From Hyaloscypha bicolor E (taxonomy: Eukaryota; Ascomycota; Leotiomycetes; Helotiales; Hyaloscyphaceae), in contig NW_020194515.1 in NCBI RefSeq assembly GCF_002865645.1, positions 1,178,001-1,242,000 of the forward strand: a stretch of DNA of 64,000 bases, given 5' to 3'. The notes below the pieces were generated by a model. It was not told where the DNA came from, searched no databases, and saw nothing but the letters and a program-made list of their open reading frames with translations. Positions 770-64,000 of this stretch are shown here, piece by piece; the stretch's first letter is position 1, and each line of letters begins with the position of its first letter. The translations under genes and the position numbers were made by a program.

Positions 770-3700
770 TAAAGAAATAAAAAAGTAGTATTAATCTAAT
801 TACTTATAGTAATAAAGAACTCCTAAACTACCTTAATACTAGACTATTTTAGTATAAGATAAAAAAATTAACTAATAATAATTTCTAGGAATTATTTAAG
901 AATAATTTTAGTAATTTTAATTTCAAAATATTTAATTAACTAGATTAATATAAACTGTATTAATTATAAGCTATTTTATAATATAGTAGTATTTATATTA
1001 AATATAATAATAAAGAATAATATATTTGAATTATAGCTAATATTATTATTATTAAACTAGATCTTAATATAGGCCTTATTACCTTACTATATATATTTCT
1101 TAATAATAGTATTATAAGAAATTAATAAACTAAACTAATTATTACTTATATTTCTTTATTATCTATAATTACTTCTATTAGTACTAGATTATAAAAAGCT
1201 AGTAATAATAGATTTCTATTATTTCTATTATTTTCAAATAGTTCTTTAAATAGCTTTTTTATTATAAAGCTAATTAGAGAAATAATAAAGATATATACTA
1301 AAATATAGAAATATAATAGAACTAATAATAGTTTTAATTAAAAACTCGCTATTTTTCTCGATATTTACTAATATATAAAGCTTTTATAAAAGGCATTAGT
1401 AAGAGCTTTTCCTATTATATTAAAAGAACTAATATAAGATTACTTTTATAATAACTAGCTTTCTTAATATATATATATAAAGGCCTATATAAATATTTAT
1501 AGTTTCTTTAAAAGCCCTAGTTTCTAATATTAAAATTTAAATAAATAGAATATTATTATAATAGTAATTATAATAGTTTAATATCTCGAAAAGATAATAT
1601 TTGAGCTTATTTAGTTACTAATTAATAACCTATATAAATTATAATATAAACTAATACTTGCTTTATAAAATACCAAATTCCTATATAATAAGATTATTAT
1701 CTTTTATTAAAATATATTAGTATACTAATATATAGTTTCGGATTCTTTTTCTAATTTCGGCTAGCTTATTAATAAGCTCTAATTATCTATTACTACTTAT
1801 AAGAAAAAGTAATAGATTAATACCGAAATTCTTTTTACTAATTAATAATATTATTTAAAAAAATAGCCAAATAACTATTTATTCGGAAATTATTAATATA
1901 ATTCTAGTTATAACTACAGCTCCCGAAATAGCTATTTAAATAGCTATAAGTCCCGTAATTATAATAACTATCTAAATAAATCATGTTTTATATATAAAAA
2001 CCCCGAATATTGCTTCTAAAAGCATATATTAAAGAAATAAGAAACTAAGAAAACTTAATTTAGAACCCGAAACTTCTATTAATTTAATAAGAAATTTAAT
2101 AGTAGCTATTTATATCTAGTAGCCAAAGTTAAAAGAGAAGAATATTATAAGAGTAATAAGAATAATAATAGAAAGAACTATTTAGGTAATACTTTTAAAG
2201 CTTTTCTAGTATTAATAAATAAATTAAAGAATTAGTATTTAGATTTCTATTTTATTTTAGTTAAGAGCCTTTTAGCTACTCCTACTATACTAATAATTAT
2301 AGCTAATACTCTTATAAATAATTTTAATTCTCTTTTTCTTATATACTAATTAATAAATAAGAATTATATCTTGGAATCTAATAAATTATTAATAGAATTA
2401 GTAATAGAAAACACTTAAATCTTTATAATAAATAATGTCTCTGAATATAATATCTATTACTTTTACGGAATTATAATTAATACTAGAGCTTCTAGATTTT
2501 TAATTACTAGTTCTAATTAATTTCAAGCTTTATAGTAAACTAATAATAATATTAAATTTAATAAAACTACTAAAGATTAAGTTAATATTTAGTTTAGTAT
2601 TAGATCTATATCTTCTATTAGATCTATAATAGTAAGAATTCTAATTAGGCAAATATAATTCTATATTATACTTATAAAAACTCTATTTTTATTTAGCTTA
2701 ACTAATATAAATAAGCTAAGAGTTTATTTTAATAATTTTACTAATTATTTTATTACTTTTATTAGATATTATATACCTATAATATAATGTTTTAAATACT
2801 TTTTCTTGCTTTAGAATATTATATTATAAAGCTTTATTTCCGAATTCTTTAATTATAATTCCTGTTTTCTTATAAATATTGAATTATAATATCTATACTA
2901 ATGTTTTAGTTATTTATTAGTTAGTAAATTCCGAAATATATTAAAATAAATAGACTATAATATTAGCTTTAATTATTCTATTATTATTAATATTTTCTAT
3001 ATTTCCGGTAAGCTTATATTCTATATTATTAATAAAGGCACCCGATATTAAGCTAGCTAATAGCTATAAAATATTAGTATAATATATATTTGAAATATCC
3101 TAAAATAATATTAGATTAATACCTATTTAGGCCCTTTTAATTAGATTATAGTAAATGCCAAAAAGCAGTTTACTAATAAAGAGTTTATTTAATTTATAAA
3201 TACTACAAGTACTAAAGTTAAAATCGTTTTTATAAAAGCTTATAATTTTATTAGAATTATAAAACGCTATTATAGCCCGATTTAATATATTTATCTTATT
3301 ATTATAGCCGAAATTAATAGAATTAATAAGGATATTATATTCCGAATAGCTTTTAAGGCTATTAATAACTTTATAAAACCTAATAGTATTATTCTAATTC
3401 TTTTAATTTATAATACTTTATCTTAAATAACTAAATATAATACTTTATTATTAACTATATTATAATAATTAGTAGTATTTAAGAAAATAATAACGGAAAT
3501 TCAAAAGCTTTAAGCTAGATATTAAATTATAAATACCCTAAATGCCCGAAATAGTTCTAATATTATTAATATTTATAAACTTCTTCTAAATTCAAATATT
3601 TTCATATAATATAAAGGAAATACTAGTTAATCTAGTAATTGAAATAGGCTATATAAGCTTATAGTAATAGACGGAAAGTTTTATATACTAGTTCTATTAT

Positions 3701-29600: not shown

Positions 29601-30073
29601 ATTATTTCTTTCTTTTTATATTATTTTTTGAATTAATAGAAATATTTTCAAATAAATAAAAGATTAAAATATACTTATATTATAAATTTTTTATTATTTT
29701 CTTCTATATTTTAATACTTTAAATACTATTATTATATTTCTATTTCTATTATATTATCTTTTTATTTCCTTATTATTACTATTTAGTTTAATTTACCTTA
29801 ATTATTTCTTAGATTATATTCTTTTAAATATATATATTTATATTTTTTTTTATAATAAAAGTCTAATTCTATATCTTATTTTTTATAATTATTTCTAATT
29901 TATAATTATATTATTTTAAATATATTTAATTATTATACTTATTTTCCTTATTATATATATTACTATTTTAGCTTTATTTTCTTATTAGAAAAAAAAATAA
30001 AAACTCAAATATATATAATATTTTTATATAATTTAAGTTTATTCTAATTTATTCTTTATTTTCAGTGTGTCAA

Positions 30074-30220
30074 AAAAGTAATCAAGATATTTCGAATATT
30101 CATGAATATTCATGAATAACTTGATTAGAATATAATTACCGGAATGCTCAAAAAATTTGATTAGATTAGAATATATATTCATGAATATTCATGAATACAA
30201 GTGATTACTCGTCACGTGAC
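30074..30220. promoter_or_regulatory. hAT left subterminal repeat array
   Basis: Contains ATTCATGAATATTCATGAAT twice plus several GATTAGA/GAATATA units in both orientations, ending at GTCACGTGAC (30,211-30,220). In hAT elements such clustered subterminal motifs are transposase binding sites; binding here is inferred. Confidence 0.6.
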
Positions 30221-30322
30221 TATAATAAATCAAGGTTTACTTAATAATTATTAAATAACTAGAGTATTTATTAAGCAGCCCTATTTAAACTAAGCTAGGG
30301 CTTATAAAATACTAGCTAAATA

Positions 30323-33043
30323 TTAATTTTCTAGAATAATAAACTGATTATCCTCCTCGAAATCTTGTTTTTTCCCCTTTTGCTCTTCCTTTTTAATCTC
30401 TTCTAATTCATCTTTAAATAGCCCCCAGCTTTTTAAGCAAGATATTAGCTCAAAGGTACTCTTATTAAGTCTATTACGTAATTTAGATATAATAAGAGCG
30501 CCTTGAGAGAAGAATCTCTCGCTAGCGGCTGAGGAAGCCGGAATTCCTAAATATTTCCTAGCTATTAAAGCTAAAACAGGAAATCCAGCGGCATTAGACT
30601 TCCAATAGTCTAAGGGCTTAGTCTATATATATATTAGTACTAATATATTAAAAAGAATTAAGGAAATATCGGGTAATTATTTAATAAAATTTAAGTGAAT
30701 TTTACTTACTTTTTTATCTTCTCTCTTTTCTTCTAAATAAGTTATTAATTCGTCCCCTATATTAGAGGGCGAATTAGTAATATATATATCTAAGTCGTCG
30801 GAGTCGGAATCGGCCATACTAAGATCCGAGGAATCGGATCTAGCTTGAGATATATTATAATCATATTTATATCTAAATTAAAAAGTTAATTATTAATTTA
30901 TTAAAAACTAATAAAAGGAATTACTTACACGTTATAATCAGTCTTTAATCTATTATATATATCCAAAGATATACCAGTAGATAAGCCAATACTAGCTAAT
31001 CCTTCTCGTTTAATTCGAGGATCAAGAATAAGAGCTAAATATAAAGCTTTACTTCTATTATCTAAAACGCCTGTTTTAGGATAATATTTTCGAAGCTTAG
31101 CTATACCCTTATCGATAGCATCTGTAAATGCTTTGTCCTATTAAATATTAGTATAATATTATTAATAATATAAGAAGAATTTAAAAAAACACTTACTTTA
31201 AATTCCTTTTTAAAATTTTCAAGTTTATTATATATTTTATATACCTCAGGTATAATATAATATATAGTCGGATAATTTTCGGCTTGTAACTTAGTCGTAG
31301 CTTTAACAAATATTGAAATTATATTTAAAATATTATTTAAATAAGTAATTTTAATATTAGTTAAAACTAGACTTTTATTTTTAAAAGCCTTCGAATTAGA
31401 GCTATTAATAACTACTTCAATAGCTTTATATATATGTAAAAAGTTCTTTAATATATAATAAGTCGAAGACCACCGTATTTTTTGATCTATAAATAATTAG
31501 TATTAATTAATAATTAATTAAATAAATAAATAATTACTTACCAAGTTAAGGGAATCGAGCATTTTCTATATTAAAAGCTTTAATTTGAGCTTCTAATAAC
31601 CGTCGGTTTTCTTGGTTATATTTAAGACCTATAATAGTCTTTCTAACCTTTCTCCAAATCAATAAATCTATAATTATTAATAAATCTCTTATAAATTATA
31701 TAGGAAACTTACTTGTTATTTGTTCTCTTTCTTTATCTTCTTCTCTATCTTCAAGTTCTTCTATTTCTTGCTCGTATAAATCTGTAGAATAAGAAGTATC
31801 GTAATCGTTTTTAATAAGAGATTTTAAAATATCTTGAATTACCAAGTTTAATACGTGAGCTATACAAGGAATATCTCCTTGAAATTTAATGCCTTCCTTA
31901 TTATAATACTTTATAAAAGCCTTTAATAAGGTATCGTTTGAGCTAGCATTATCTCGAGTAATACTAAATAAAATATATTAGTAATTATTTTTTAAAAACC
32001 AAGATTTATATTACTTACCTAGTAATATTATATTCGATATCGTATTGTTTTAAAGCTTCTAATAAAACAGAAAGTATATAAATACCAGAGTATATATCGT
32101 TTAAGTCTTTCATGCCTAATAAATAAGACTTTAATATAAAATCTTTATTTATAAAATGTCTAAAATAAAATTAGTTTATCTTTTAAAAAAATTAATTAAT
32201 TAATAACTTATTAACTTACATAGTAATACCAAGAAAGGCCTTTTGATTTATACTTGTCCAAGCGTCTAAAGTAATAGAGAAAGTTCCTTGAGATTTAATA
32301 TTTTCGCTTAGTTCTTCTTTAATATTTAAACTCTTTTCGATATAGCGTAAATTAAGCTCATCTGTAAGTGTCTTTGAATATATAGCTGGTACTTGACTAT
32401 TAAATATTAGTATATATATATAAGAGGGAATTTAATAAAAACTTACTAATTTAAATAAGATATTAGCTTTTTAAAGCTAGGTATAGTAATAGCCCGAAAA
32501 GAGATATTATTATTAATAATAAAGTTTAATAATAATCCCTTAAAGTGATTAATAGTAAAGCTTTCTTCTCGTTGTCCAGATTGCTTATTAAAAAGGCTAC
32601 TTATAGTCGTTTGCGAGACGTGACTAGAAGCTTCACTTTTACCTATTAAATATATTAGTAAATCTAGTCTTTTATTTAATATAAAATAACTTACTATTAT
32701 TCTCGCTTTCTTTAAGAGCCTCAAGATCTATAAATTTATACGAGTTTCGAAAATGAGTATAATAATTACTTGTAGGGGCATATATTCGTTAATTTATCCA
32801 AGTTTTACTATTATATATATTAGTTAAATAAAAATTATATATGGATATAATAACTTACGAATAACCTCGAACTAAGCACCTTATAGTACATGTACGAATC
32901 TCTTCGGGATCCTCTTATATAGGATCTAAAGTCTTTCTTAAGTAGCTCTTTTTAAAGAGAGGACCTTGCTCATTAATAGGCTTTAATTTAAATTCAGGGT
33001 AATTTTGAGTTAAGTTAAGCTTAATCGAAGATCCTTGAGACAT
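30323..33043 (-). pseudogene. hAT transposase, 11 exons, three premature stops
   Basis: Encodes the DDE-type hAT transposase that cuts and inserts the element in the nucleus. Exons on the minus strand: 33,043-32,859; 32,807-32,695; 32,642-32,447; 32,396-32,220; 32,159-32,019; 31,963-31,713; 31,667-31,542; 31,486-31,197; 31,137-30,929; 30,872-30,710; 30,622-30,323. All phases join correctly, giving about 716 codons. Visible motifs: 'FRAITIPSFKKL' in exon 3, 'TLDAWTS' in exon 4, 'TRDNASSND' and 'CIAHVLNLV' in exon 6, 'RWSSTYY' in exon 8, and the C-terminal dimerisation domain ('DYWKSNAAGFPVLALIAR', 'PASSAASERFFSQ') in exon 11. In-frame TAA codons at 32,915-32,917, 32,789-32,791 and 31,546-31,548 break it; each fits CAA to TAA. 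It is otherwise uneroded. Confidence 0.9.
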
Positions 33044-33424
33044 TTTCGAGTATATCGAGTATAATCGAGTATATTTATAGTAGAAAGTATATTGATAGGA
33101 GTGGTAGTTGAGTTTTTATATATAAATAAAGTATGGGTAAGAAATAAAAATCAAGGAAATCGACGTATTCTTATAGAAAGTTCTAATATTCTAAAGGCTT
33201 CTAAGTTCTTCTTCTAATTATCTAGAATCTACTTATTTCGAAGATTCTAGTCCTTTGATTTCTAATATTTAGCTCTATAATCACTAATATTACTAAATAA
33301 TTAAGTCGAGGTAATTCTAGAAGGATCGTCAAGCTTCGGTTCGCTTACCAAGCGTCACTATTTCTAATTGGGTGGCGAGGTGGCGCTAGGTCGGGAGCAC
33401 CCGGAGCCTTACCCGATTTGGTTA

Positions 33425-33590
33425 GCCGCTCACGTGTATGTCACGTGTATGTCACGTGCAAAGTATTCAAAGTATTCATGAATATTCATGATTACCTTGA
33501 TTAGAATCTGATTAGAATATGATTAGTGAGAATATTTGATGAATAGATTAGATTACTGGCCGGTATTCTAATCTAATCTATTCATTTGAC
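33425..33590. promoter_or_regulatory. hAT right subterminal array with three CACGTG boxes
   Basis: CACGTG occurs at 33,431, 33,442 and 33,453, exactly 11 bp apart, followed by ATTCATGAATATTCATGA and repeated TTGATTAGAAT/TGATTAGAATA units up to the terminal repeat. This is upstream of the transposase start, so the boxes may also serve as its promoter elements; that is inference. Confidence 0.55.
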
Positions 33591-33651
33591 ACACTGTTTA
33601 TTTTAGAAAATATCTAAAAGAAATTCTTATAATTTCAAGAATTTTTAATTT

Positions 33652-33830
33652 TATAACTTATAATTATTATATTAATAATATTTATATAACTTATAATTAT
33701 TATATTAATAATATTTATATAACTTATAACTTATAATTATTATATTAATAATATTTATATAACTTATAATTATTATATTAATAATATTTATATAACTTAT
33801 AATTATTATATTAATAATATTTATATAACT
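33652..33830. repeat. 33-bp tandem repeat, about 5 copies, in Gypsy C
   Basis: The unit is ATAACTTATAATTATTATATTAATAATATTTAT (positions 33,652-33,684 and following). Copy B has a single unit at about 15,474-15,506, so the expansion is private to C. Confidence 0.85.
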
Positions 33831-34349
33831 TTTTTAAAAATAATAAAATAGCTAAAGAATAGATTTCTTAAGCTAGTAAAGTATAATAACTAGTTCTCAT
33901 AAGCTATAGTATTATTAAAAGCCTATAAATTAATAATATTAAAGTTTAGAATATTAAGAAAGCTTAAGTAATTATAGAAGGCCTACTAATATAGAAAAAA
34001 TAGTTATAATTATCGAATTTAATATAAAGATTCTAGATAAACTAAATAGTATATATAATAAACTCTTGAAATAGAAAATCTTTATTAGAAATAAAACTAA
34101 ATTAGAATTAATTAAAAAAGAGCTAAAGAATTACTAAGCTAATAATAGAGAATTTGAGAATATTATTAAAGGCAAATAAGAAAAGCTTAATAAGATTAGG
34201 ACTATAATAAATAGTTTTAAAACTAGAAGTTAGAATAGAATTATATAATATAATAAAGCCTTTAGCTAATATATTAATAATATTTATAATAATTTTAGTA
34301 AAAATATTTATAAAAAGTTATATTCTTTCTTTAAAATAAGCTTTAGTAT

Positions 34350-55975: not shown

Positions 55976-56045
55976 TAAAGTTAAATTAAACTAAAGAGAA
56001 AGCTAGATTTTTGGTGTTCCCTGTTCGAGCGCCTCTACTTTGGGT

Positions 56046-56093
56046 TAGTGGCCCCCAATCGACACCCCAATCGACACCCGGAGGGGTGTCGTT
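56046..56093. repeat. GC-rich hairpin with duplicated CCAATCGACACCC at the RIP boundary
   Basis: CCCCAATCGACACCC appears twice in tandem, and CGACACCC pairs with GGGTGTCG across a short GGAG loop (56,073-56,093). The TA-adjacent sequence TTAGTGGCCCCCAATCGACA resembles the terminus of a Tc1/mariner (Fot-type) element, so this may be a collapsed transposon end. Suggestive only. Confidence 0.4.
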
Positions 56094-56120
56094 TTACACA
56101 TTCCCGTCATAAGTTGTAAG

Positions 56121-56440
56121 TTAAAAGTTCGTTGGCACATCCACGTCCTTACTTAAGGCTTTCCGTAATGGTGTGAAACCCCCCATATTTCCAGGGTGGT
56201 CAAGATTCTGCACGCATTTCTCGACAGCCTTACCGCTCATTTCCCCGTCGTTGCCTTCGTGGAAGACGAACATTCTGGTCCAAGGAAAGGGATTGAACCA
56301 CTCCAGTCTCTTGAACCATGGGTCAGCCCCATGAGCAAGAAGGCCCTGGCAGTAAGTGGCCCTCCCCAAGCTTATAGCGTAACTTACGAGGCACTCTGGA
56401 AACAGTACCGAAATGTTTCTTTGCGGATGTTCCCGTAAAA
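56121..56440 (-). pseudogene. Ankyrin-repeat protein fragment (C-terminal)
   Basis: The minus-strand frame ends with a natural stop at 56,121 and contains the ankyrin signature 'YAISLGRATYCQGLLAHGAD', followed after a linker by 'NMGGFTPLRKALSKDV', the start of another repeat. Ankyrin repeats are protein-binding modules in large fungal protein families. Only about 100 residues remain. Further upstream on that strand (56,441-56,570) the open frame is merely antisense to the oxygenase gene and has no ankyrin character, so the gene appears truncated at about 56,440. It is probably a relic. Confidence 0.5.
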
Positions 56441-57411
56441 GATGTTTCGTCGGCTCTACTCTACCTTCGAAAGGACGAGATTCACGAGTCGGAGAAACCA
56501 TACAAGCTGCAATACAACCCGGGGGGTGACCTCCCGCACCAGAACACTGCTCAGGAGAGCCGTGGGCCAATTCTCATCCAGGATCTGAGAGGACAGTCGA
56601 GATCATTCTCTTTCGAAAACAATGGTTTCTCATTCTTGAAAATGGAATCTAAACTGGACCCAGGAGACTTTTACAATGTGAAAAGAGTAAAAGATATCTA
56701 TTATGCTGAAATTAAAGCTCTCCTTCTGAAATATTTCGGGGCAAAGCGGGTCGAAATTTTGGAGCATATAGTAATCAATCTCACGGTTTGATATCAACTT
56801 TGATGGGTGCTGAAAATATACAGACAAGAAAACGGCATCCTGAATTTCCAATTTCCACTGGCGATGACTACGACTACGCCCAGCCGACATCAATCGTGCA
56901 TGCTGACTTCACCATGGGCGCGATTTTGGAGATGAGCCAAGATGTTCTCAAGATGAACAATTCAGATTATAATCGTATTCAATGCCTGAAGTCCGCCATC
57001 TCCAATCAACTGCAAAGACTGGAGCTGAAAGTTACAGCATCTGGAAACCATTACGAGGCCCTCTCGCGGATTGGCCATTAGCACTCTGCGATGCCGAGAG
57101 CGTCAACTACGAGGCCGATTTGATCGCTGCAGATGTGGTATCTCGAACCGGATACACAGAAAATTTCCAGGTTTACTATAATCCAAAGCATCAATGGTAT
57201 TACTTGAGTGGACAGAAGTCGACAGAGCTGGCTATCTTCTGTCAGGGCGACACAAATTATGTCGATCGGAAGTGTACGTCATTGAATTTAATCAACAGGT
57301 CCATGCTAAGAAAAAATAGGCGTCCCGCATTGTGGCTTCCGGAATCCTCTGAGCGACCCAAACGAGCTCCCGAGGGAGAGCATTGAGGCGAGGGCATTTG
57401 TTTTCTACTGA
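56318..57411 (+). CDS. CmcJ/NvfI-like 2-oxoglutarate-dependent oxygenase family protein, 5 exons (first exon tentative)
   Basis: Exons: 56,318-56,351 (tentative), 56,442-56,770, 56,824-56,990, 57,038-57,273, 57,320-57,411, giving 285 residues, a usual length for this fungal family. Introns are 90, 53, 47 and 46 nt; the last has GTACGT, TGCTAAG and TAG. Motifs of the family are plain: 'YLRKDE' near the N-terminus, 'RKRHPEFPISTGDDYDY', 'PTSIVHADFT', 'IWKPLRGPLADWPLALCDA', 'YNPKHQWYYLS', 'VPHCGFRNPLSDPNELPRES'. His147, Asp149 and His259 are candidate iron ligands (inferred). Known members act on secondary metabolites, but the substrate here is unknown. Without the first exon there is no in-frame ATG: the frame is closed by TAG at 56,375-56,377. 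The start exon has a good context (ACCATGG) and a GTAAGT donor but lies antisense in the ankyrin fragment. Confidence 0.8.
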
Positions 57412-57549
57412 CGCAGTCTTCTTCCACGAATTATTGCATAGCCTCCTCAGGAGGATGACTTAATAATGTAGGAAGCTGAATGGGTCACGAGATGGGAGAT
57501 GATTCTTGCATATTCTGAACTTTTGCTATTCCAAACGATTTCCTTCATC

Positions 57550-57582
57550 AATAAATAACAAGTCATGACTTCCACAAATAAA
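57550..57582 (+). terminator. Candidate poly(A) signals AATAAA (two) for the oxygenase gene
   Basis: AATAAA at 57,550-57,555 and 57,577-57,582, about 140-170 bp after the stop codon. No other features are seen in 57,412-57,689. Confidence 0.3.
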
Positions 57583-57689
57583 GCACTGCCACCACAATCT
57601 AACGAACGAGTGGAGGGTATCCATCCATGCAGAGTAAAAGCGGTCGGCGACGACGGTGAACAATCCGGCTAGAGCCACCGAAAGACCTC

Positions 57690-57872
57690 TCACTTTCTAT
57701 CTTTCAAAGGATCTAAACAAGCACCACCTTGCCCACCAAGCTGGAGCATCTCTCCTTTGGCAAAGCCGTGCTTCTCTCCCTGCGCTTCCTTGGTTTGGGG
57801 AGGCCAAGCCTTCTTCCAGGGCTGAGCCTTGCGTTCCTTGGAAGCCTGTGGAATCTTTTGAGATGCCTCCAT
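57690..57872 (-). CDS. Small Lys/Gln/Trp-rich protein, 60 residues, unknown function
   Basis: The start codon sits in an ideal fungal context (CACCATGG), and codon use (AAG, GAG, CAG, GCC) is that of a real gene. A typical intron lies in the 5' leader at 57,882-57,929: donor GTGAGT, branch-like CTTAAC, acceptor CAG, ending 9 bp before the ATG. The product is soluble, with 'PWKKAWPPQTK', 'GEKHGFAKGEM' and a Gly-rich 'LGGQGG' stretch; it has no signal peptide or membrane span. The stop may be the beginning of another donor (AAGTGAGA), so a further exon is possible. I do not recognise the family. Overlapping frames on both strands are shadows. Confidence 0.5.
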   Translation of the reverse strand: MEASQKIPQASKERKAQPWKKAWPPQTKEAQGEKHGFAKGEMLQLGGQGGACLDPLKDRK

Positions 57873-57881
57873 GGTGTATAT

Positions 57882-57929
57882 CTGCTTGAATTAACACCCA
57901 CGGAGTTAAGACACTACTCACAAACTCAC
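57882..57929 (-). other. Intron in the 5' leader of the 60-residue protein gene
   Basis: 48 nt, GTGAGT...CTTAAC...TTCAAGCAG on the minus strand. All three splice signals are of canonical fungal type. Confidence 0.5.
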
Positions 57930-57934
57930 GTCTG

Positions 57935-58963
57935 AAGTCCTTCTTTGCTTCAATTACTGCTGAGATTCAATATACTCAATGTCTGGTACATTGATGGCGA
58001 AAACTCAACGGGGGTCCAATTTGGCTTGGGGGCGCCGACAACCATAATTCATACCCGAAACTCGAGGGAAAGTGGGGTATCGCATGAGCCTTGGAGTAGA
58101 TTAACCATCAATACCCAATTGGTAGGAGTGCCAAAAGATCCGTCCCGTCCCGCAGTTTTGGGCCCGCAAGTTGGCATGGGTGGTGGCTGCGACTGGCTAT
58201 CCAAACGTCGCTCGCCTCACCTTTGCAAAGCATGTGCTTTCCCCCTGTCCTTATTAGACGCTACTGAGAGGGTTTGGAAGGTAACACAGAACGGCTATCT
58301 TAGTCGAATGAGGATTTACCCGGCTGCCCGTCATGAATCATAATTCTCAAGTACCAGTATCCTTCATGTCGTGGTGCAGAAGACGCCAAAGCCGCAGGGG
58401 TCGTCCGTGAGCCAATCTGGCTCGATTACTGTACCAGCGGTCAGGGGCGGACCCCAGGAAAAGCTCATTGTTTCTCTGTTCGCGTAAGACATGTGCTTTG
58501 TTGTCATTGTAAAATTCTCTCCTTGACTCAGTACCCGGTTGGTGGAACCATAAATATTGAACGAGGACCCACAAGCCACAAGCCACAAGAAATTCAAAGC
58601 CACGGTAGTTTACCGGACTCCAAAGCCATGTAGGTGGCCTCCATAGTGCGCCCAGCTTGGGAGAGCATTTAAAAGAGTTTGGGTCAGGGATCTTGAAAAG
58701 CAGATTTCTTCAACGTCTGATCACCTACTAAAAGCCGCAGTCCGTAGATTCACTGATTCAGGCTTGACTCCGACATCAATTCGTCGAGAAAGACGGACTT
58801 TGCCAGACAGCAAAAATGGCGCTCCTTCCTCAAAAGAGAGCAGATATTTCTATTAAAGCAGGGACTCTCATATCAGCTCAGTTATGTTTCTCTTCCAGAA
58901 TGCTAGGTTATACTATCCCTGATAGCTTCTCGTGCAATACCATACACTTCTGCCCCGAAAAAA
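57935..58963. promoter_or_regulatory. Intergenic region shared by two divergent genes
   Basis: Separates the minus-strand small gene from the plus-strand membrane-protein gene and so should hold both promoters. STRE-type pentamers (AGGGG/CCCCT) occur at 58,242-58,246, 58,396-58,400 and 58,443-58,447. A TATA-like CATTTAAAAG lies near 58,666. Open frames here (57,945-58,343 and overlapping minus frames near 58,350-58,600) show no domain and no splice context. Confidence 0.35.
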
Positions 58964-60951
58964 ATGGCGTTTGCATGGATCATCATGTCCACTAGGTGGG
59001 ATTTCGCCAATGTTCAAGCCACACTCAACGTTATCATCAGCGTTTTAGGAACGATAGGCATATGGGCATTTTCTCGATTCTGGTATCAGCGTGGCAGCAC
59101 AAAAATTATCTCCAAAACCAACGCTCCCCTATCAACCCTCTTCACCTTCACCAGCCCCGGAGAGGCTTGGGACTTGCTTGTACTCCTGAAGGCCCACATA
59201 TTCGAGAGTCGATACTTCAATCTCCTAGTTCAGCTTGTTGCGATATTGATAGTAACTACTGCAACGACGCTTGCTGGCCCGATTGCAAGATACGCTTTGA
59301 GGACGGGGCATATGGTTCAACAAAATACCATTGCCGGGCTATCTGCAAGCAAAGGAGGTGGCGCGTCTGGCAACAGTGCAGGTGCGAGCGTGCTGTGGAA
59401 CAACACTTTCCGGAATCTGGACGAGGCAAACTTCCCTCACGACCAGCTTTTGGACTTTTTGCCACCAAGCACCCTATCGTGGACCTATCGTGCCGATGAA
59501 TGGGATCCTGCTTGGCGGGTTCACTGTAACGAAACCGGGGAGACATCCCTGGCTATCACGGCGAACCCAATCTACCCAATTGTCGACCCTCTTAATGCAT
59601 TTCCAGCGTTTCGGGACACGTTCGACGCGCTTTGGTTCAATAAATCCATCTACCGTGTCACAGCAGACTTCTGCGGGTGGTTTCCATGGGATCCAAATTA
59701 CTCCTTACTCTTAGCAAAGGATGTGGTTGTCTTTGTCCTTATTCAATCTGATCCGGCTGTGGACGATCAGATGCACAAGAATGAACACCCAATCCATCTT
59801 TCTCTCTCCACCATTCGTCTTCACTCATCCACCCTAGTTATGCGTAATGACCAGGTCAATTACTCTGCCCGTACTGCTTGGGCTTTGAATGGGACAGTGG
59901 GGAACGCAAGTTACGTCAGGACCGAATGCACAATCACTCGAAAAGCGGTGGTGGCGGACGAAGATAGGATAGCGTGGCCATGGACCAATGACACTGTAAG
60001 CTTCTTCGAGAGATCTATTCTTTTGTTGTTGAAAATATTTGTCTCATGTACCTCATGCGCATTCCAGGAGAAAAAACTTACGGCAATCCCAGGCCTCTCT
60101 CATCAAAGCATTTGCCGATTACAATCGCTTTGCAGTGATTCAAGGTTCAGTGAAGAATGAAACAGTGCCTCTCTTCAATTCTAGTGAGCTTTTTCGCTTC
60201 TACCAGTAAGCACCACCTGAAGACCACCTTCAAGTCCGAGCTCCCTGAGAGACATATTCCAAGACTTGTGAGTCTTGGCATACTGACTTGCCATTTTTCT
60301 AGGGTATATCAGGTCGCTACCTCAACTGGATGGCAAGTAGCGGGGACTAAGCTTCTTAGCCTCAACCACACCACAGTCGAAATTTCAACAGCCTTCGTAA
60401 CCGTGGTGCTTCTTCTCGTGCTCTTTACCGTCGCCGGTAGCATCAGGTATATTTGGTTCTACCACCGCAACAAGGACACGCTGGAAGCTCTCTTCGTGCC
60501 GGACGGTACAATCGATTGGATGCTACACGCAGCAAAAGCTGCCCACACTAACCTAGAGGTCGGGGTGAAAGATCGCGTTCATTTTCAAAAAGCCATTTTC
60601 GGAAAGCGACCTTCGAGCACTCCAATATGCAGGCTTGCTCGTGTGCATAGTGGTGTAGCATTGCCTGATATGAAGCAATCGAGGTGCAGTGTCGGAAGAA
60701 CGGGCGTGAAGAAAGGGGCAGTTGTTACTTTTAACGAGATTCGAGACAGCTCTTCTTCGGGACCATCTTCAGCAAACTCGGACGAGAAAGGCAGCAGGGC
60801 AACAGTAAACTTAGTACAGCCACAATGCGATTTTCGCACGTCTGTTGAACTGCTGCAAAGTGATGGCAGAAGCTCACATGGTATCGTGGATCCGATTATT
60901 TTACCCAAGACAGAAGGGAAGGACGAAAGTTTAGATGAGAAAGCGACTTGA
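58964..60951 (+). CDS. Three-span membrane glycoprotein, 597 residues, unknown function, 3 exons
   Basis: Exons 58,964-59,995, 60,093-60,205 and 60,303-60,951; both introns are 97 nt (GTAAGC...CCCAG and GTAAGC...TTCTAG), and phases join cleanly. Predicted spans at residues about 17-37, 85-107 and 411-433. The loop between spans 2 and 3 carries about 11 N-glycosylation sequons (NNT, NET, NKS, NYS, NGT, NAS, NDT, NHT and others) and must face the lumen or exterior. The last 160 residues are a Ser/Lys-rich cytosolic tail with a 'DSSSSGPSS' run. The layout matches lineage-specific fungal membrane proteins of unknown role; no catalytic motif is visible. The start at 58,964 is the first in-frame ATG (AAAAAATGG), with a second at residue 8. 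Confidence 0.8.
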
Positions 60952-61123
60952 TGAATTTGAGGCCGGTCTGCTTCAACTTAGTGGAGTAACCCTACTGAGA
61001 AGGGTCAAATTGTACCGACGCAGATGCGAGCGAAAATATTGATTGTTCGAATAACGAATTTTACAAGTGTGTAAAGTTGGTAAGTATGAATGGAGAAACA
61101 GCCTAGTAAGTACAGGAACAGCA

Positions 61124-61129
61124 AATAAA
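61124..61129 (+). terminator. Candidate poly(A) signal of the membrane-protein gene
   Basis: AATAAA about 175 bp after the stop codon; 60,952-61,217 holds nothing else recognisable. Confidence 0.3.
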
Positions 61130-61217
61130 CATTATAAATGTGCCTCTTTATCAATTGCAAACCCCAGTCCGACTCTTGTCACCTGCTTCCCTCGTTGTCA
61201 CGCGGCATATTACTAAC

Positions 61218-61595
61218 CTATTCTACACGATTCTCTGGTAAAGCCATCGCAGATCCCTCCACCGTATTCCCTCCTTCTTCCTCGTCAATCCCCCAAGTTA
61301 TATCGGCCAGAACAGGCTGGAAATAAGTAAATTCCCCATACACCTCTTTAGTGTCGAGCCACATTCCTTTCGACTCTAGTATATCTATGTGCCGGAAGCA
61401 ATATACAATTGACTCCTTTACTTCGTTACTACTGTTACGTTCATTGCAAAAGCTGCTGGCATCTCCTAGATGTATAACCTCCTTCATCTCTGGAACAAAC
61501 TTGGCGAATCTCCATGTGTATAATATCTTGGGGGACAAAATCTTAAGGAGAACGAGATAAGCAGAATAAAATAGGAGGGGGACTACGGTGCGCAT
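61218..61595 (-). CDS. Hypothetical protein, 125 residues, with N-terminal hydrophobic segment
   Basis: A continuous frame with a plausible amino-acid mix. Residues about 4-20 (VVPLLFYSAYLVLLKIL) form a hydrophobic segment that could be a signal anchor. The rest is soluble and acidic toward the end (DEEEGG). The region 'FRHIDILESKGMWLDTKEV' looks like a genuine folded-protein sequence. No intron needed. I do not recognise the family. It converges on the membrane-protein gene. It may be a fragment of a longer gene, since nothing supports a promoter directly upstream. Confidence 0.4.
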   Translation of the reverse strand: MRTVVPLLFYSAYLVLLKILSPKILYTWRFAKFVPEMKEVIHLGDASSFCNERNSSNEVKESIVYCFRHIDILESKGMWLDTKEVYGEFTYFQPVLADITWGIDEEEGGNTVEGSAMALPENRVE

Positions 61596-62230
61596 TTCAG
61601 CCGCTCTTTACATTCGCAAGACATGGGGTGACCCGTAAAGTTTTTTTTTTACGAAAGAATGGAAAGTGGGTTTGGAGGCTGTGATGAGCAGTGGCGAAGA
61701 GATAATCTCGAGGAAAGCCTCCTGAACTCGGAATTCAAATTCAAATGCGACTCAGTAGTATACCAGATAATAAACCTGAGAAATTCATCGCTTTCTTTTG
61801 CGTGCGCGGCCACAATCAGCTAGTCCTCGTCATTGCACCCAAACTCAGGGGTATCATGTGATACGTAACCGACCTCCTTTCCATTATTCTGCTGTCGATC
61901 ACTGGTCTATATATAGCAGTAATATTCCAAGTGAGTTAAGAAAAACTCCTACTTCGAAAGGGTTGTAGATTTGAAGACGGAGCAAGCAGAATAAGCAGTA
62001 TATAAGGCGCTTGATTCTGTGGCGAGAAAAAATACCTCTGCTTGATTCAGCTGCTGGAGGAATGGTTCACTGGGAAGAAGAGCGTGACCGCAGGGGATTG
62101 TTCTATATTGTGTCTAACAAACTAATGGTTTGCAGTGCAAATGTTCGACTCGAGGGCTCTTGCTTATTGTTTCGTCAGACGAGACGGCAGGTGAACGTCT
62201 AATGACAGAGGAACATTGGACAGTGACAAA
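61596..62230. other. Intergenic region without a supported gene
   Basis: Contains a poly-T run at about 61,640-61,650 and a TATA-like CTATATATAG at 61,907-61,916. The short frame at 62,011-62,202 has no support. No other structure noted. Confidence 0.3.
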
Positions 62231-62683
62231 CAGTGTGTCAAAAATTTGAGTAGAGTAGAGTATATACTCATGAGTAGTATGAGTAGTAATGAGTAGCCGT
62301 CACGTGACAATAATAAACTAAGGTTTATTTAATAATTATTAAATAATAAAGATATTTATTAAGTAGCCCCAGTAAAGGTAAGCTAGGGCTTGTATAAGAC
62401 TAGCTAAATATTAATTTTCTATAATACTAAACTAGTTATGCTTCTTAGAATCTTGATTTCCCCCTGACCTTTGGCTCGCTTACTAAGCAATGTCATTGCC
62501 TAATTGGGTAGAAACTTGGCGCTAGATGGGAGGCTTACCTAATTAGGCTAGCCTGTCACGTGCAACTGTCACGTGGGTACCTACTCACACTACTCATACT
62601 ACTCATGAGTAGCTTGAGTAGAGTATGAGTAGAGTATGAGTAGGACCCACTACTCTACTCTACTCTACTCATTTGACACACTG
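62231..62683. mobile_element. 453-bp hAT-derived miniature element (internal-deletion derivative)
   Basis: CAGTGTGTCAAA / TTTGACACACTG termini identical to those of the 3.5-kb hAT at 30,063, and an exact 8-bp duplication GTGACAAA (62,223-62,230 and 62,684-62,691). The interior retains the end of a transposase gene (about 62,420-62,465, aligning with the last 20 or so codons at 30,323-30,390) and the sequence beyond its start side (about 62,468-62,575, aligning with about 33,340-33,460), so the middle was deleted. Subterminal repeats are about 20 units of GAGTA/TACTC instead of GATTA/GAATA. Confidence 0.92.
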
Positions 62684-62691
62684 GTGACAAA

Positions 62692-63760
62692 GAACTTGAC
62701 AGCAATGAGTTGGGACAATTGTATGGAGTATAGCTAGTATATTGAGAGTATGAAATTGCTGAATTCGCAATAGCGTCGCGCTGAGCTCTTTTGCAAGGTT
62801 CAAAAAGAGACGATGAGTTACAGAACTGGTAGACAGTTTTCCTCGAGAAGCGATCACCCGGGCCGTAAAATTTATCTCTTTGAGTTGAGCCTCGTGAATG
62901 TCTGTAAGCACTACAAAGTCGCATTCACCATCACAGCTCAGGGTTCATAATACAGGCAAGCACCCCTGGGAAGCGAGGCGATCTCCTCCCAACTAGAAAG
63001 GGACATCAAACCTGACAGAGAGGACTATTATCATTTCTCTTCTCATTTTTTGTTGTTCCCTCCTCTTCTGATATAAAATCACGCGTGGAGTCTGAACCTT
63101 TTCGATCAAGAAAGAACTATCAATTGAGGCCATAGTGCGAGTCCTTTCGCAACGGCAAACTGCAGTGAGTGCATGGGCCCCGCCAGTTTCCCCGTAGGCG
63201 AGCATGCCAAACTCGGAATCCCTGGCTTGAAGTCTACGTTTTTTTTAATTTTAATAAAGCGCAGCATCTCAAACTGAGCAGGAAATGAATGATAACAAAT
63301 CGCCACTTGACAGCGATGATAAGTGAACCTCTCTCTAACGTGTCGTCCCCAACCCCGCTAGTGTTGTTGAATACGGAAATCTAGTGGATTTCACAAAAGG
63401 CTTCCCAAGGCGTCAAGCTAGCTTCTTCAAGGTGCCGGTAAGCAACGAATAGGTACCTATATTCAGTCCTTTAGCAATGCAGCTGTTGCTGGTTAATATT
63501 CAAATCCTCAACGTAAGCAGCCGTTTTATATAACCCTGCACGACCACAACCTCAATCTTTGAAATACATTGTATATGACGGCAAAGTAAATCGCTGCAGT
63601 GACACACAAGGAAAAGCAATCCGCGATGGAAAGTACCGAAGTGCTACTTCCTAAGAGACGGTGGGGTATTTACAGAACGAGCACGCAGCAATGGTATTTC
63701 CTTGGCCGCCCTTTTCCTCACTCGAAGACGAGTCTCGTCCTCCGCTCCGCAATCCACCTC
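62692..63760. other. Intergenic region without a supported gene
   Basis: Only short frames on both strands without domains, hydrophobic patterns or convincing splice signals. A T-run lies at 63,240-63,247 and a TATA-like TTTTATATAA at 63,524-63,533. A diverged or intron-rich gene cannot be excluded. Confidence 0.3.
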
Positions 63761-63800
63761 TAAGTATATAAAAAGGTGAGAGTGACTTCGGGCTCATACC

Positions 63801-63965
63801 ATGGACCCACGGAGGCTGGACAAGAGTCACAAGACTACCTATGGCTTCGAATACACAAGGAACCCTCAACTCGAGGTATTTGATTATATATCGAATATTG
63901 GTAGGCCCAGCACCGTGCTCAAAATTGGGTGCCAATTCAGAGCTGCGTTCCAACTCTATTGCTAA
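63801..63965 (+). CDS. Possible small ORF, 54 residues, or first exon of a gene running off the window
   Basis: The ATG sits in a strong context (ATACCATGGACC) 35 bp after a TATA-like AGTATATAAAAAGG (63,761-63,774). The distance is too short for a normal leader, which argues against it. The product begins MDPRRLDKSHKTTYGFEYTR, with no recognised domain. A GT following CTCGAG at 63,873 could be a splice donor. Confidence 0.2.
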   Translation: MDPRRLDKSHKTTYGFEYTRNPQLEVFDYISNIGRPSTVLKIGCQFRAAFQLYC

Positions 63966-64000
63966 CCAGGGCAAGGCCGATGCAGCAAGAAAACTGTGAC

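Follow-up and report, generated by a model that had tools for sequence, protein, structure and literature searches.

It is an open question how a transposase and dozens of its sites can change specificity together while avoiding a dead intermediate. The window analysed here, a stretch of 64,000 nucleotides from Hyaloscypha bicolor E, raises it with two elements: a full-length hAT element and a miniature relative whose subterminal arrays are built from different five-base units.

The two window elements and the closest relative of the MITE

The full-length element belongs to family A (labels A–G were assigned in this analysis from ends and tree) and spans 30063..33596 (3,534 bp), with its coding strand on the minus strand, between two copies of the target site duplication TTTATTTT (30055..30062 and 33597..33604). 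Its left array (30076..30215) and its right array, which carries an inverted-repeat tip (33458..33584), consist of GATTA and GAATA units, as the preliminary description had stated; 13 GATTA, 20 GAATA and a single GAGTA were counted in the first plus last 200 bp. The transposase gene (30326..33043, minus strand) falls into about 11 exon pieces and is broken by stop codons, with stops in exons 1–2. Superfamily membership is indicated by the hAT dimerisation domain PF05699 in the joined exon pieces (E 9.3e-20; score 70.7 bits, cutoff 21.4), by short terminal inverted repeats of CAGNG type (CAGTGTGTCAAA and variants), CAGNG being the hAT consensus, and by exact 8-bp duplications at both window elements, at L035, at L039 and at 17 of the 30 MITE-query loci L001–L030, the window MITE included. 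The match to the RNase-H core PF14372 (E 0.0015) lies under its gathering score. Among 14 proteins that match at E ≤ 0.001, the best is one of Rhynchosporium graminicola. Just right of this element, a tandem array of ~33 bp units occupies 33648–33831. GC content is 12–21% in 2-kb steps across positions 1–56000 (25% over 30001–34000, at the hAT element) and shifts abruptly to 44–50% in 56001–64000, the GC-normal part in which the miniature element sits.

The miniature element (62231..62683, plus strand, 453 bp) is a non-autonomous hAT element, or MITE, with CAGTGTGTCAAA/TTTGACACACTG at both termini. It is short, multicopy and non-coding, as judged over these 453 bp, and has terminal inverted repeats and a target site duplication in common with a full-length element. 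The duplication GTGACAAA was read directly on both sides (62223..62230 and 62684..62691), and the terminal inverted repeats (left, CAGTGTGTCAAA, 62231..62242, plus strand; right, 62672..62683, minus strand) are identified by a genome-wide 12-mer count, which gave 466 copies of CAGTGTGTCAAA in the 82-Mb genome versus 4 for the reversed control. The arrays at 62248..62296 and 62581..62671 hold 7 and 13 GAGTA/TACTC units, the 20 that had been claimed, and the first and last 200 bp hold 0 GATTA or GAATA units. Two MITEs of the genome (L012/L026) lie head to tail inside 1,102 bp.

The full-length element of the window was considered as the parent of the MITE and ruled out by identity. The left part of the window MITE is 83.8% identical to L039, a full-length element elsewhere in the genome, versus 80.4% to the window hAT; the left 308 bp of the longer MITE copy L002 give 85.8% versus 78.7%, and the left parts of L002 and L007, both longer copies, give 85–86% versus 78–79%. 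The window pair is therefore a MITE and a cousin, not a MITE and its parent, and by these identities the window MITE is a member of L039's GAGTA class. L039 (C62:2138601-2142131, 3,531 bp), with CAGTGTGTCAAA ends and the 8-bp duplication ACTACGGC, has GAGTA arrays at both ends and is the second lineage that had been predicted. Its arrays contain 12 GAGTA on the left and 15 on the right, with GAATA 3 and 1 times, respectively. It constitutes family E, which is thus one fully read copy, and a mosaic one. A second GAGTA family, D, has eight copies and a terminal repeat unlike CAGTGTGTCAAA.

Array classes and the middle base of the GANTA unit

At least seven full-length families of this group occur in the genome, with long copies at 32 loci, some of them truncated or interrupted. 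Their arrays fall into distinct classes: GATTA in F, GAGTA in D and E, mostly GAATA in B, GATTA plus GAATA in A and G, and GAGTA plus GAATA in C. One divergent copy, L062, stands beside the seven families with units that resemble RIP-worn GATTA. Terminal repeats vary as well, being CAGTGTGGGCAA or CAGTGTGAGCAA in D, CAGTGTGAGCAA in C and TAGTGTGAGAAA in G; GAATAGAGTAGAATA and GAATAGAATAGAATA are further end types whose owner copies were located only, and further F-like copies were located on C61, C69, C70 and C56. The two ends of an element agree in class. Excluding L034, L048, L050, L056 and L059 from the counts, the F copies carry 18/17 and 18/14 GATTA (left/right) and six of the seven D copies counted carry 15–19/14–15 GAGTA, the exception being L053 (6/12), in which the left end has been replaced. 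In the GAGTA full-length copies L039, L043 and L049, the palindrome GAATATTC or lone GAATA/AAATA units survive within otherwise uniform arrays, and these odd units perhaps represent a separate site.

Unit-by-unit alignment of the ends, with one copy per family, confirms the base-by-base match with parallel substitutions noted in the preliminary description. The units keep their places and orientation and, for the most part, their spacing; the base that moves is the middle one of GANTA: G in D and E, T in F, mostly A in B and fixed mixtures in A, C and G. Among matched units, T occupies 24/25 in F, G occupies 24/27 in E and 22/24 in D, and A occupies 21/24 in B; the mixed families have 15 A and 12 T (A), 12 A and 10 T (G), and 12 G, 12 A and 1 T (C). 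Of the 25 homologous units compared between the window hAT and L039, 22 are different, 12 by T>G and 10 by A>G, and in each case the G is on the L039 side. The earlier wording of a change in every unit overstates this: GAATA survives at a few places in the arrays of the GAGTA families, among them 3 of 27 matched units of L039.

Such uniformity is beyond chance, as had been proposed. When the seven families are compared at 29 homologous unit columns, the uniformity within elements is 1413, against a null mean of 692.6 (sd 20.2, max 817) when states are shuffled among families within columns, and 0 of 10,000 shuffles reach the observed value. Pairwise family divergence is 0.60–0.63 at the middle base, 0.43–0.46 outside the units and 0.09–0.12 at the other four unit bases, the last value being lowered by construction because units were chosen by GA.TA, a choice that leaves the uniformity of the fifth base unaffected. 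With both ends summed, E and A differ at 26/29 middle bases, 3/111 other unit bases and 54/161 positions outside units; for E and C the figures are 13/29, 5/111 and 54/162, which places the mixed arrays of C closer to those of E. Mixed arrays had been named as a potential sign of gradual drift. Such arrays are indeed present, yet for the most part their pattern is fixed for a whole family and does not drift from copy to copy.

A genome census of right ends, using a pattern with the middle bases left free, gave 143 matches versus 0 for the reversed control; the pattern misses any end whose terminal repeat has changed or whose units are broken. The 48 right ends read among the matches listed resolve into only 6 strings: GAGTA three times (14 ends), GATTA three times (10), GAATA-GATTA-GATTA (8), GAATA-GAGTA-GAATA (6), GAATA three times (6) and GAATA-GAGTA-AAATA (4). 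Exact genome counts are 37 for the pure G string and 30 for the pure T string. Pairing right ends with the opposite ends listed yielded at least ten short elements of 163–873 bp, distributed as GATTA 2, GAATA-GATTA-GATTA 2, GAATA-GAGTA-GAATA 4 and GAATA 2. At least these four classes therefore own short relatives, besides the GAGTA MITEs. The triple-GAATA and GAATA-GAGTA-GAATA ends occur on short elements (C14:773293-773748, C17:218421-218992, C2:338578-339120 and others), and none of the loci with right ends read supplied a full-length partner for them.

The N-terminal finger and its covarying codon

Exons 1–2 encode a Cx4C...Hx4H finger with a helix of the form xTSNYxxH. The whole pattern, Cx4C...xTSNYxxHFRxxH, is seen in less mutated copies such as L035, and Cys or His is lost in many others. 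In the window element, the finger lies at 32735..32896 (minus strand; approximate limits, with an intron between two exon parts), and the codon before TSN, helix position −1 and the equivalent of Hermes Q64, is CCT (P) at 32774..32776 (minus strand). A BED-like identity is suggested by this pattern together with weak profile matches. A 12-row finger profile whose rows included other hAT fingers had the ZBED2 BED domain as its best PDB match (E 0.03); a 9-row fungal profile had Tramtrack finger 1 (E 0.078), with ZBED2 absent from its 17 matches. Tramtrack finger 1 reads a GAT triplet through its S and N. A Pfam search of the N-terminal regions returned no domain, BED included, in 4 of 4, and a single finger sequence searched against PDB had no match. 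The Rhynchosporium graminicola proteins P0001 and P0003, the best and third-best matches (40% and 45% identity), have the same finger spacing but different helix starts (HTIINYITH and ELISNLFTH), and are known here from proteins alone. A predicted structure of P0001 reached a mean pLDDT of 42 and was left unused.

The lineages differ at the residue equivalent to base-contacting Hermes Q64, within the N-terminal region that had been singled out for comparison. Leaving aside L034, L048, L056 and L060, which have no usable sequence here, helix −1 is CAA in 5 of 8 D copies and a stop in the other 3. It is P in 11 of 16 copies of A, B, C and G, with C-to-T derivatives in the other five (S 3, L 1, F 1), TCT (S) in both F copies and A in L062. 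In L039, the codon is TAA, which is one CpA-to-TpA step from CAA and three changes from CCT, and its ancestral residue was accordingly, as we infer from that single step, Q. YAA is also matched at this position by the sequence closest to the finger exons of L039, a second E-like copy at C59 (23647-24819), whose end aligns to L039 at 77%, too little to fix its array class. Ten places in the genome match the TCT helix pattern: six are F-like by position, four of these with an exact GATTA end within ~0.85 kb, two (L047, L058) belong to C and carry a C-to-T change, and two are unassigned. The S of F is one C-to-T step from P, which weakens the covariation on that side.

The agreement between D and E at this codon conflicts with the relationships of the elements as a whole. 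Interior trees from DNA and from purine/pyrimidine states unite E with A at bootstrap 100 in both, followed by B (98); the deeper order, with weak support, is G (61 and 75), C (58 and 72), D (74 and 66) and then F. The two GAGTA families are thereby set apart by A, B, G and C, and through most of its length E groups with A as its sister and apart from D, although D and E both carry GAGTA. Among 2,781 usable purine/pyrimidine columns, five are common to E and D alone, as against 3 for A alone, 3 for F, 2 for C, 2 for G and 1 for B. Two of the five E–D columns fall in the single helix −1 codon, where they may represent one mutational event; by hand arithmetic, at least one of five random columns would fall in the four contact codons (12 columns) with a chance of ~2%.

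Residue −1 is not the whole code, since the P-type families differ in their arrays (A and G with T plus A, C with G plus A, B mostly A), and other residues must matter. At helix +6, S replaces T in all 7 copies of B. At +1, I occurs in 5 of 5 C copies and in 4 of 7 B copies; being C-to-T-like in B, the I of C may reflect mutational wear.

Hermes, the hAT element of Musca, resembles these families in its short repeats, present in both orientations and at both ends with quasi-palindromic pairs, and in an N-terminal finger with the helix register xTSN---H (PMC10368747). According to the available part of that source, its helix reads Q64-T65-S66-N67...R70-H71, and base-specific contacts are made by Q64, S66, N67 and R70 in the register xTSNxxxH and by two main-chain carbonyls. 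Hermes differs in its motif (AAGT versus GANTA), in its ligands (CCHC versus Cx4C...Hx4H) and at +6, where Hermes has R and the H. bicolor families have T, S or A. In the docking described there, R70 (helix +6) touches the third base of AAGT, and the available text names no base for Q64; the middle base of GANTA may therefore be read from −1 or from another residue.

Origin of the concerted change

The preliminary description had read the motif change as coevolution with a transposase of altered DNA-binding specificity. The array classes, the tree conflict and the finger codon support this; the transposase copies examined look RIP-degraded, so that binding of the units by the finger is presumed. 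On the sequence evidence, coevolution of the transposase and its putative sites is probably the best explanation, though well short of certain.

Homogenisation inside the element, in which gene conversion, slippage or template switching would spread a neutral variant and leave specificity unchanged, is unlikely. The repeats are short and many, a long inverted repeat with matching arms makes up the right tip, and real array expansion has occurred in family D (L044, L055). However, register, orientation and most spacing stay constant across families while the middle base moves, both ends change alike though they are not copies of each other, the four other unit bases change little, and the finger codon covaries.

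It is equally doubtful, or a shade more so, that recombination accounts for the pattern, with L039 receiving its GAGTA ends, perhaps with the finger, as a module from another family and undergoing no unit change on its own branch. The nearest family does shift along L039. By transversions, it is A or B at 240–1800 (1.7% and 1.6%), A at 1800–2640 (3.4 and 3.9%) and C/G at 2640–3330, and recombination between families contributed to L039, so part of its difference from A need not have arisen on its own branch. Region trees group L039 with A at 240–1800 (100), 1800–2560 (99) and 2560–3000 (100), with D at 2640–2830 (72%) and with A and C at 2830–3330 (79%). The short-tree grouping with D could reflect common descent of that piece. 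Gene conversion of the finger from D to E was considered and is unsupported by distance: in the finger segment (2640–2830), transversion distances from L039 are 8.0% to G, 8.6% to C, 10.2% to A, 11.8% to B, 13.4% to D and 19.4% to F, so four families lie closer than D, which argues against a conversion tract from it. The segment is diverged by 8–19% from all families, whereas 240–2640 is only 1.7–3.9% from A; fast change or an unread donor perhaps lies behind this. Further points against a module transfer are that the finger is far from every family, with no evident donor among the families read, that outside the units L039's ends are no nearer to D than to A, and that the 2560–3000 tree keeps L039 with A. 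Recombination would, moreover, only mean that the change began in a different lineage.

Escape of the motif from a host DNA-binding repressor of the arrays, with the transposase following, would also yield a whole-array change but has no direct support, and we consider it very improbable. RIP, which prefers CpA, or another mutation bias turning GAGTA into GAATA or GATTA is the least credible account and was rejected, despite strong indices in the 11 interiors measured (TpA/ApT 1.20–1.34, CpA+TpG index 0.29–0.62) and the worn arrays of L062: the T/G differences are transversions (22/24 F–E units), which excludes RIP and already contradicted it for GATTA, in L031 the CpT of TACTC differs although the neighbouring CATG still has its CpA, and L039, whose CpA+TpG index (0.29) is the lowest among the 11, retains GAGTA.

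Under coevolution, the GANTA units would be subterminal sites bound by the transposase's N-terminal BED-like finger, with the middle base as the specificity base. That base would have switched several times, at both ends and in most units, becoming G, T or A or settling as a fixed mixture, and the switches would accompany changes at the start of the recognition helix, above all at residue −1, with Q paired with GAGTA, P where GAATA is kept and S with GATTA. Residue −1 may read the middle base, and if the finger reads GANTA sites cooperatively, a helix change would shift the middle-base preference. On the simplest account, sites would then convert singly, under selection, via mixed arrays, of which A, B, C and G may be fixed examples; such stepwise conversion would be feasible because many weak sites would tolerate partial mismatch. 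Each class would subsequently have amplified its own short non-autonomous copies with the matching enzyme, and the classes would presumably not be cross-mobilised. We advance tentatively, as somewhat less than an even prospect, a fuller model in which the middle base is determined by a small finger-helix code centred on −1 (Q, P or S). In this model, that residue and some 20–35 sites would have switched in concert, repeatedly and through mixed arrays, and the hAT families of one genome would thereby have split into separate mobilisation groups with their own MITEs.

Diversity of hAT site preference is already known (PMC10368747, PMC8097297, PMC3260210). Maize Ac/Ds likewise combines an autonomous hAT element with small relatives, common terminal inverted repeats and subterminal AAACGG hexamers thought to give specificity, but, in the part of the source available, with a single motif class across the family (PMC3260210). 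The hAT-derived CGG-binding proteins have diversified BED-containing domains, and the motifs of the transposon-encoded ones match their own subterminal regions; they differ in coming from distant hosts and domesticated genes, and the available text holds no within-genome, unit-by-unit comparison (PMC8097297). The accessible part of the Hermes study likewise reports no whole-array single-base switch (PMC10368747), and none of the titles listed in a search of open-licence papers reports a within-genome unit-by-unit motif switch. In H. bicolor, at least five array states occur in one genome together with transposase relics and can be aligned unit by unit. The candidate specificity residue and the mixed arrays, as possible intermediates, make directly testable how a transposase and its dozens of sites may change specificity.
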